Assembly: GCA_021768485.1 (NCBI GenBank)
Contig: JAIZVZ010000041.1
Span: forward strand, 1 to 33,592
Direction: 5' to 3'
DNA: 33,592 nt
Source: Oxalobacteraceae bacterium
Lineage (GTDB): Bacteria > Pseudomonadota > Gammaproteobacteria > Burkholderiales > Burkholderiaceae_D
Shown: positions 24,598 to 26,229 of the stretch, piece by piece
Layout of the letters: every line of letters begins with the position of its first letter
How positions within the stretch are numbered: position 1 is the stretch's first letter
Position numbers and translations under genes: made by a program
The notes under the pieces: generated by a model
The model's input: only the letters and a program-made list of their open reading frames with translations
What the model was told of the DNA's origin: nothing
The model's database searches: none

Positions 24598-24649
24598 GCG
24601 CGTGTCTTTTTCTCGCTGGCGTCATCGCGGCGTTTGCCGGGGCGCCGTT

Positions 24650-24946
24650 TCAGCAGCATTCCTTTTCCAGTTGGCCCAGCAGTGCCAATGCCTCGCGGTC
24701 ATCCCACAGTTCGAACAATTCCTGTATCTGCCCGAGATTGGAATGAATCATGAGCAAGTCGTCGGCTTGCAGGCCGATCTCGCCGGCGCGCTTTTTCGCA
24801 AAATAATCCCAAAAGGCATTATTGTGCTCGGGGATCGCGCGGTGGCGGTCGATGCATTGCATGACGCGCCGCGCCTGGCCCATGCAGTCGATGCCGGCAA
24901 AGCTGACGTAGCGATCGGTTTTCTTGCAGCCGCAATTGGCACTCAT
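24650..24946 (-). CDS. cowN: CowN, carbon-monoxide protection protein of nitrogenase
   Basis: The 98-residue product matches the CowN family throughout: DRYVSFAGIDCMGQARRVM, the NAFWDYFAKKRAG segment, DDLLMIHSNLGQIQELFE and the terminal LLGQLEKECC. CowN lets diazotrophs fix nitrogen in the presence of CO and is reported to bind and protect nitrogenase. This copy has a short Cys-rich N-terminus (NCGCKK). No nif gene is in the window. GGAGG stands seven bases upstream of the ATG. The gene lies 74 bases downstream of, and on the same strand as, a CooA-like regulator, with a CooA-type site in between. Confidence 0.93.
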   Translation of the reverse strand: MSANCGCKKTDRYVSFAGIDCMGQARRVMQCIDRHRAIPEHNNAFWDYFAKKRAGEIGLQADDLLMIHSNLGQIQELFELWDDREALALLGQLEKECC

Positions 24947-24976
24947 GAAAGCCTCCAGAACGAGTCGATGCTTGCC

Positions 24977-24982
24977 ACTGTA
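24977..24982 (-). promoter_or_regulatory. Candidate -10 element of cowN
   Basis: Read on the minus strand, TACAGT (4 of 6 matches to TATAAT) lies about 31 bases upstream of the cowN start. It predicts a transcript start near 24970, which places the operator at 25004-25019 at about -41.5, the class II activator position. The -10 is weak on its own, as expected for an activator-dependent promoter. Confidence 0.4.
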
Positions 24983-25003
24983 GCGCGTCGGCCGCCGCCG
25001 ATC

Positions 25004-25019
25004 CGTCGGCTGGCTGACA
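25004..25019 (-). promoter_or_regulatory. Candidate CooA-type operator of cowN
   Basis: On the minus strand the site reads TGTCA-GCCAGC-CGACG. The Rhodospirillum rubrum CooA site is, as I recall it, TGTCA-N6-CGACA, so nine of ten specified bases match. It lies between the regulator stop codon and cowN, with a suitable -10 box downstream. Confidence 0.55.
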
Positions 25020-25020
25020 A

Positions 25021-25737
25021 TTAAGCGTCCATGTCCGCTGTGGCGGCGCGCGCCTGCAGCGCCTCAAGCTGGCAGATCAGCAGGCGGCGCCGGCCCTGGC
25101 GTTGCAAGATGCCTTCGCGCTGCCATTGATTGAGCAGGGATGAGACGGTCTGGCGCGTGCTGCCGAGCAGGCTGGCGATGTCTTGCGTGCTCAGGTCGAG
25201 TTCGAGCAGCCAGCCTTGTTCACCGGTTTGCGCGCGGCGCTGGGCCAGGCCGACCAGAAAGCGCGCCAGCCGCGCCGGCACTTCGCGAAATGCGAGATCG
25301 TCGATCAGCGCCACGGCATTGCTTAACAAGCGCCCCATGACGCGCATGATGGCTGGGTGGATGTCGGGCTCATGCGCGAGCTTGCGGGCAAAGCGAGCGA
25401 TATCCATGGTCCATAATTCGCAGGCCGCCACCGTTTGCACATAAGCGGGCGTATGTGTCGTATAGATGTCGCCCGGTTCGAGAAACGCCAGGCTCAGCTC
25501 GCGGTTGGCGCCGGCCAGATAGACGCGCAAGCGGCCGCTACGGACGACGAAAACCTGATTTTCCTGCTGGCCCGGCGTCGACAGCAGATAAGCCTTGGGC
25601 AGGCGGCGCAGGGCAAAGTCGGCCAGCCAGCCGTGCGGCTGCGCGGCGCCGGCCAGCGTGGCGAGGTCGATCGAGGCGTGACAATGAGAATGGACGTGGG
25701 CATGCATATCGTATGGCTCAAGCAAAAGTAGTGCCAT
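25021..25737 (-). CDS. CooA-like Crp/Fnr transcriptional regulator (possible CO/heme sensor)
   Basis: A 238-residue Crp/Fnr protein: cyclic-nucleotide-like sensor domain (about 25-125), dimer helix, and C-terminal winged helix (about 160-230). It aligns without gaps over the effector core to R. rubrum CooA as I remember it: ENQVFVVRSGRLRVYL with ENGVFVVVDGRLRVYL, and GDIYTTHTPAYV with GDMFCMHSGCLV. The CooA heme ligand His77 corresponds to His95 here, while Cys75 is Thr93. The recognition helix GSTRQTVSSLL resembles CooA GSSRQTTSTAL. The N-terminus carries an unusual histidine cluster (MHAHVHSHCH, residues 11-20). The start at 25737 has AAGGA eight bases upstream. An alternative is ATG 25707. 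The frame extends to 25896 without support. It probably controls cowN. Heme binding is inferred. Confidence 0.85.
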   Translation of the reverse strand: MALLLLEPYDMHAHVHSHCHASIDLATLAGAAQPHGWLADFALRRLPKAYLLSTPGQQENQVFVVRSGRLRVYLAGANRELSLAFLEPGDIYTTHTPAYVQTVAACELWTMDIARFARKLAHEPDIHPAIMRVMGRLLSNAVALIDDLAFREVPARLARFLVGLAQRRAQTGEQGWLLELDLSTQDIASLLGSTRQTVSSLLNQWQREGILQRQGRRRLLICQLEALQARAATADMDA

Positions 25738-25786
25738 GTTGCAAGTCCTTGATTTGGCGGCCGCGCCTGCCTGGCGTCGCGATGTT

Positions 25787-25827
25787 TGCCGGGTTTGCGA
25801 CAAGCGCGGTTGCAGGCAATGCGACAA
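25787..25827. promoter_or_regulatory. Repeated CGACA half-sites upstream of the CooA-like gene
   Basis: TGCGACAA occurs at 25796-25803 and 25820-25827, a direct repeat with 24-base spacing in the 252-base gap between the regulator and the divergent small gene. With its left flank the first copy gives TGCCG-GGTTTG-CGACA (25787-25802), 8 of 10 specified bases of the recalled CooA site. It could serve autoregulation or the divergent gene. The rest of the gap shows no gene. Confidence 0.35.
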
Positions 25828-25989
25828 TTTTGTTGCTGAGGGCAGTGCGCTCGCGCCTGCTCTTGCTTTCCCGATTTTGCCAGGCGGTCGGCGCACGTGC
25901 TATCGTGGCGCCACGCTGAGCGAAGCTGTGCCAGTTATCTATCAGTTTTTATCAAGTTTTTATCAATCCATAGCGAGCCAAGACGATTC

Positions 25990-26229
25990 ATGACGACTTT
26001 ATTTTCCATGCCGGTGTTCGATGCCACTGTAGTCTACGAAGGAAACGAGCTATTCAAGGGCAAAGGTTCGGCCGAGCAATGGGCACAACGCCTGAGCGCT
26101 GAAATCAAAAGCGAGACCACGGTGCGCAAGATCGGCACCGGCTGGGCCATTTGCGGCACGGTCGACGATGTCGAGTGCCAGTGGGGCATTTACGGACAAC
26201 GCCTGAAGCGCATCGATCAACAACAGTAA
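25990..26229 (+). CDS. Small uncharacterised protein divergent from the CooA-like gene
   Basis: A 79-residue soluble protein with no family I recognise. It is Trp-containing and of mixed charge, with VVYEGNELFKGKGSAEQWAQ in the first half and IGTGWAICGTVDDVECQWGI in the second, suggesting a small compact alpha/beta fold. Two cysteines are present and there is no signal or membrane segment. The ATG at 25990 is preferred. ATG 26008 is an alternative and neither has a good ribosome site. Its position opposite the CooA-like regulator, with operator-like repeats between, makes it a possible member of the same regulon. Confidence 0.6.
   Translation: MTTLFSMPVFDATVVYEGNELFKGKGSAEQWAQRLSAEIKSETTVRKIGTGWAICGTVDDVECQWGIYGQRLKRIDQQQ

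Follow-up and report, generated by a model that had tools for sequence, protein, structure and literature searches.

The 74-nt intergenic stretch in front of cowN in this Oxalobacteraceae genome very probably holds a CO-inducible promoter, activated in class II fashion by a CooA-like protein whose own gene is predicted to be under sigma54 control. The window analysed is the whole stretch of 33,592 nt (contig JAIZVZ010000041.1). On its minus strand, cowN (24650-24946) encodes a 98 aa N2-fixation-sustaining protein that matches NCBIfam NF033689 (120.4 bits, cut-off 48) and Pfam CowN, and the gene directly upstream (25021-25707, minus strand) encodes a 228 aa homologue of the CO sensor CooA. The CooA-type operator TGTCAGCCAGCCGACG (25004-25019, minus strand) is a 16-bp dyad that starts one base past the stop codon of the CooA-like gene (25023-25021) and is separated from the cowN ATG (24946) by 57 nt. 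A -10 hexamer, TACAGT (24982-24977, minus strand), follows the dyad after 21 nt; set at -12 to -7, it predicts a cowN start at 24970 (minus strand) and a leader of 24 nt with the Shine-Dalgarno sequence GGAGG (24952-24956, minus strand), and the centre of the dyad, between 25011 and 25012, falls at -41.5. An earlier note on this DNA had proposed a minus-strand site TGTCA-N6-CGACG at these positions, matching TGTCA-N6-CGACA at 9 of 10 bases, together with the same hexamer and start and a centre at about -41.5, the class II position. The site is present as described, the position and arithmetic of the start agree, and recomputing the centre from the predicted start returned the same value.

The site is better read against the CooA consensus TGTCGGCNNGCCGACA, given for Rhodospirillum rubrum and Desulfovibrio in the accessible part of PMC545781, than against TGTCA-N6-CGACA. 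It agrees with this consensus at 12 of 14 positions, and no other site in the window scores as high; sites of at least 12/14 in 60 shuffled windows averaged 0.43 over both strands (maximum 4), and 18 of 20,000 shuffles of the 74-nt intergenic stretch reached 12/14. The D. desulfuricans cooSC site in the same part of PMC545781 differs from the window operator in its last base only. The final G is likewise the single mismatch to TGTCA-N6-CGACA and to the wider TGTC(A/G)-N6-(C/T)GACA dyad (9/10). Along with this base, the window site departs from the ideal in its A/C asymmetry and in a weak -35-like hexamer (CGGATC, 25000-25005, minus strand) that overlaps the end of the dyad, a feature to be added to the first description. 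A generic sigma70 scan of the window did not report the cowN promoter, because its -35 is poor. By itself, a loose dyad match is near chance level. Such matches are common in the window, given that TGTCA-N6-YGACA with up to two mismatches occurs 58 times where 34 are expected, and exact TGTCA-N6-YGACR occurs 18 times in the genome versus 14 for the reversed control. The composite of dyad, GA, N19 and TANNNT matches once across the 4.17 Mb of the genome, namely at cowN, and the reversed control also has one match. It is the comparison across loci that carries the case.

For this comparison, CowN was searched in sets of 60, 369, 398, 399 and 47 genomes (1, 4, 5, 8 and 10 positive, respectively; the sets overlap, and the window's own genome is counted among the positives in the first four), as well as in a plasmid collection (1 record) and in genome_contigs, where 80 of 92 relatives were kept. 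Dropping 11 near-duplicates from 105 cowN loci left 94; the initial alignment of CowN sequences was too varied for use in scanning. A CooA-like gene lies directly upstream of cowN in 41 loci and is missing from the locus in 52, and in one locus (L076), tallied apart from both groups, it lies 1.2 kb upstream. All 41 cooA-adjacent loci carry a GTC-N8-GAC dyad scoring 8-10/10 no more than 300 nt before cowN, with NANNNT 21 or 22 nt downstream, and in 31 of them the downstream element is TANNNT. Seven of the 52 loci without a CooA-like gene have the dyad, and three (L032, L042 and L049) have both the dyad and TANNNT at 21/22 nt. The mutual support of site, spacing and neighbouring regulator that the earlier note had claimed, and the conservation of the dyad before cowN on which it had staked its reading, are both borne out by these counts.

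The best dyad within 250 nt of cowN scores 9 or 10/10 in 30 of the 41 loci, 8 in ten and 7 in L089, whose dyad lies at -252 and is included at 300 nt. Shuffles of the upstream regions, which keep base composition and nothing else (as do those for the -10 spacing and for the sigma54 score given below), reach at least 9/10 in 1.3% and a maximum of 8 in 18.5%. TANNNT stands at 21/22 nt in 30 of 40 sites, against 2,000 shuffle runs that averaged 0.52 and never exceeded 4, in a test designed after the spacing had been seen in the first nine loci, which (or duplicates of which) are among the 40; the remaining ten -10 hexamers lack the first T and keep A2 and T6. The -10 position and the conserved 21/22-nt spacing together centre the dyad near -41.5 of a predicted sigma70 promoter. 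Immediately behind the dyad, positions 17-20 from its start are G in 39, A in 38, C in 30 and A in 20 of 40 sites, and in the relatives this G-A-C(-A) occupies the place expected of a -35. The spacer is non-random, which also amends the first reading. Information per position is 1.52 bits in the dyad, 0.16 in the upstream flank and 0.30 in the spacer. The loci are related, mostly Rhodocyclales and Burkholderiales going by their titles, and similarity of CowN was the basis on which they were gathered. Since the dyad is conserved while the flanks vary, common ancestry is not by itself enough to account for the pattern. The dyad/-10 pattern also fits the alphaproteobacterial locus L014 (Rhodobacter) and the loci of Stutzerimonas (L054) and Thiobaca (L089), which we take to be gammaproteobacterial. 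A single predicted operator thereby becomes a conserved, spacing-locked promoter in dozens of genomes.

The dyad is palindromic and lies just past the cooA stop in the window; in 17 of 40 loci it reaches into the 3' end of the cooA frame. Such a position would also suit an intrinsic terminator or other 3' RNA hairpin of cooA, and coding constraint on the end of cooA may add to the conservation of the dyad. A terminator scan, however, placed two sites in 24600-26000, neither of them at the dyad; RNA from the dyad stretch folds no better than its shuffles (z 0.40), no T run stands behind it, and the dyad remains at cowN where cooA lies elsewhere, as in L042 and in L076, in which it sits just before cowN and is followed by TACAGT. 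The terminator reading was rejected on the scan, the folding test and these two loci, and we consider it extremely unlikely.

A different reading makes the dyad a NifA upstream activator sequence (UAS), TGT-N10-ACA, which has the same length, with cowN driven directly by NifA and sigma54. The sequences of CooA and NifA sites overlap, as do the sites themselves in Gluconacetobacter diazotrophicus, according to the accessible part of PMC8047169; several Ectothiorhodospira cowN loci have TGT-N10-ACA together with a sigma54-like element. Against this reading, TGT-N10-ACA is kept in 14 of 40 sites and is not present in the window, whereas GTC-N8-GAC is kept in all 40, and a UAS and a sigma54 element occur together within 300 nt of cowN in one of the 41 cooA-adjacent loci (loose sigma54 matches in 6, UAS in 14). 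A sigma70-type -10 at fixed spacing from the dyad also argues against direct NifA/sigma54 control, which was rejected for the cooA-linked group on this spacing and on the rarity of a kept UAS, and which we rate as very improbable for the window. Ectothiorhodospira-type cowN loci (L075, L079, L082, L085 and L028) show TGT-N10-ACA with TGGCCC-N5-TTGC-type elements and no adjacent CooA, and a search of two Ectothiorhodospira genomes (L074 and L075) found no CooA. Two modes of cowN control can be set apart in this way, CooA with sigma70 on the one hand and, in several Ectothiorhodospira, a UAS with sigma54 on the other.

The preferred reading, activation by the neighbouring CooA-like protein, is consistent with the features of this regulator. 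Its best PDB matches are CooA entries (E 5.7e-41 and E 3.5e-33), presumably the Carboxydothermus and Rhodospirillum proteins, respectively, and both cNMP_binding and HTH_Crp_2 are above cut-off. His77, the proximal haem ligand, is kept in 42 of 42 cowN-linked regulators. These also retain RQ(T/S)xS in the recognition helix, of which the window protein keeps R177, Q178 and S181 (CooA numbering). In R. rubrum CooA, Cys75 is the ferric haem ligand and the N-terminal Pro2 is also a ligand, and CooA acts from class II positions at the R. rubrum coo promoters; a CO response is known for Azotobacter CooA as well. The first reading is to be amended in that the window regulator lacks Cys75: the residue is T here, C in one of 42 linked regulators and S in the CooA proteins of Geomonas and Azomonas, and because the latter also do without it, Cys75 was treated as non-defining for CooA. 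Pro2 is absent from the predicted N-terminus, MHAHVHSHCH, which follows from the likely start codon (ATG at 25707). This N-terminus is rich in His, and relatives repeatedly show starts of the same kind (MHAHAH..., MHPHA...). Through this comparison, the CooA sensors that lack Cys75 and are linked to nitrogenase protection can be delimited as a group.

A further rival reading is that some other Crp/Fnr-family protein, and not the neighbour, uses the site. CooA was searched in 39 genomes, representing 35 of the 49 operator-less cowN loci, the three operator-bearing loci that have no local CooA-like gene and one control; several of these are incomplete assemblies. Twelve of the 39 hold other Crp/Fnr proteins, scoring 75-93 bits, and such a protein could in principle occupy the dyad. 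Its GTC/GAC half-sites, however, fit published CooA sites, with which the dyad consensus of the relatives agrees as far as the accessible parts of PMC545781 and PMC5371261 give them; the neighbouring regulator keeps the three recognition-helix residues named above; and just three of the 35 genomes with an operator-less cowN have a CooA match above 200 bits, namely two Geomonas and Dactylopiibacterium, the last of which has another cowN (L052) that bears the operator. Use of the site by a different family member is therefore highly unlikely. Two of the loci with an operator and no adjacent cooA, L032 and L042, have CooA matches elsewhere in the genome (315 and 237 bits). In L042 (Azomonas) this match is at base 487178 of a contig, beyond the end of the cowN contig of 231203 bases, and CooA is therefore on another contig. 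No dyad was found within about 1.5 kb after the L032 CooA, and for L049, which has the dyad, no CooA was found in the 1.9 Mb assembly.

The two Geomonas genomes with CooA have no dyad before cowN. Their cooA genes (L120 (2245) and L121 (2289)) are followed by a dyad, 21 nt and TACAGT or TACATT, and the gene behind is of the NADH-oxidoreductase 20 kDa type (NuoB/hydrogenase small-subunit-like). As the dyad here accompanies cooA in front of a gene other than cowN, the promoter geometry tracks CooA rather than cowN. In the genome of the window, the extended dyad pattern is matched at four more places (reversed control, 0). As further CooA targets these were rejected, none having TANNNT at 21/22 nt in readable sequence. 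C66 falls within a TldD/PmbA gene and C218 within an open frame with no Pfam match; C24, close to an outer-membrane efflux gene, and C184 are at contig ends and were judged on one side only.

A second level of control is predicted upstream of cooA, where the sigma54 -24/-12 element TGGCACTACTTTTGCT (25721-25736, minus strand; GG-N10-GC) would place a start at 25710 and the ATG at +4; a candidate cooA ATG further upstream (MALLLLEP) falls inside this element. The best sigma54 match, taken regardless of the ATG, scores at least 9 in 31 of 45 cooA genes (9.7% of shuffles), with L073 covered in part only, and 26 of these 31 have an in-frame ATG at +1 to +4. When an in-frame ATG is required near the sigma54 start, 28 of 43 cooA loci qualify (19 at +2) and 15 do not; the 28 include L040, whose match in this count is probably spurious, a separate inspection of the locus showing GGGCATTGCTCTTGCA and an ATG at +2, and the 15 include L031, a miss owing to a misplaced anchor, which by hand count has TGGCACCGCTCTTGCT and an in-frame ATG at +3. 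Shine-Dalgarno runs, scored as exact substrings of AAGGAGGT alone, have a length of 0 before 19 of the 28 cooA starts, 3 before eight and 4 before one, and before cowN in the same loci they span 3-6 in 27 loci and 4-6 in 26 of these. With the -12 element 12-15 nt before the cooA ATG, no clear Shine-Dalgarno sequence there and an ordinary cowN leader, these features suggest that cooA is read from a leaderless sigma54 transcript in a NifA-CooA-CowN cascade. Leaderless cooA did not appear among the open-access matches listed (10 of 182 for the broadest search) or in the accessible part of PMC3616915, and the Azoarcus BH72 paper on NifA names neither cooA nor cowN in its main text.

Further upstream of cooA, at 66 nt from the -24 element, lies a degenerate dyad, TGTCGCAAACCCGGCA (TGTCG-N6; 25787-25802, minus strand). 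Many related cooA genes have a dyad at 58-66 nt ahead of the -24; the window has TGT-N10-GCA, and six relatives have an exact TGT-N10-ACA UAS 58-59 nt before the -24. This dyad is a candidate NifA or CooA site, and autoregulation of cooA is possible. At nifH, the window genome has TGGCACGGCATTTGCA and two TGT-N10-ACA sites. A small ORF (MTTLFSMPVFDATVVYEGN..., 25991-26229, plus strand) is divergent from cooA and has no Pfam or NCBIfam match.

Control of cowN by CooA is already in print for Rhodobacter and Gluconacetobacter, and the window is a further instance. In the algH-cooA-cowN arrangement of G. diazotrophicus, the CooA site lies 60 bp before cowN and overlaps a NifA site, and cooA is likely RpoN-dependent; cowN RNA is raised in diazotrophy and further with CO, and shows no CO rise in ammonium-replete cultures (accessible part of PMC8047169, which also gives Rhodobacter capsulatus cowN as coordinated by NifA and CooA). 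The window resembles these systems in that cooA adjoins cowN, the CooA site is about 60 bp before cowN, the predicted function is CO protection of nitrogenase and cooA is likely RpoN-dependent. In contrast, the window cowN site has no overlapping NifA UAS, and next to cooA no algH ORF was noted, the upstream neighbour being the small ORF just described. In Rubrivivax gelatinosus, also of the Burkholderiales, cooA and cowN are adjacent and CooA has been suggested as the cowN regulator (accessible part of PMC4257681, which gives no operator or promoter). The window has the same adjacency. The dyad is found in the Rubrivivax loci L043 (9/10), L045 (8/10) and L047 (8/10), but their -10 hexamers (TAAGGT, GACATT and CACAGT) are weaker than that of the window. 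The CooA targets described for R. rubrum and Desulfovibrio in the accessible part of PMC545781 are CO dehydrogenase and hydrogenase; in the window genome, in contrast, CooS (24 bits) and CoxL (169.6 bits) stay below their cut-offs of 478 and 991, respectively, and nifHDKEN are above cut-off.

In the proposed mechanism, a homodimer of the adjacent CooA-like protein would bind CO at its haem and adopt the DNA-binding form. The CO-bound dimer would occupy the 16-bp dyad centred on -41.5 and contact the alpha N-terminal domain and sigma70 of RNA polymerase, in the manner of a CRP-family class II activator. Transcription would then begin 24 nt ahead of the cowN start codon, and CowN would be produced when nitrogenase is endangered by CO. 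The nif-type sigma54 element of cooA, with NifA as its likely activator, would supply CooA mainly under nitrogen-fixing conditions, and readthrough from cooA may give basal cowN expression. The resulting NifA-to-CooA-to-CowN cascade would have AND logic, which fits the CO response of G. diazotrophicus being absent from ammonium-replete cultures. We give an even chance to the broader proposal that, in many proteobacteria, a leaderless NifA/sigma54-dependent mRNA for the CO sensor and the loss of Cys75 together make CO sensing follow nitrogen status, as a two-promoter AND gate for nitrogenase protection. If this is true, the redox ligand Cys75 would have been dropped, and CO sensing in these bacteria would be wired to nitrogen status by transcription and not by haem redox.
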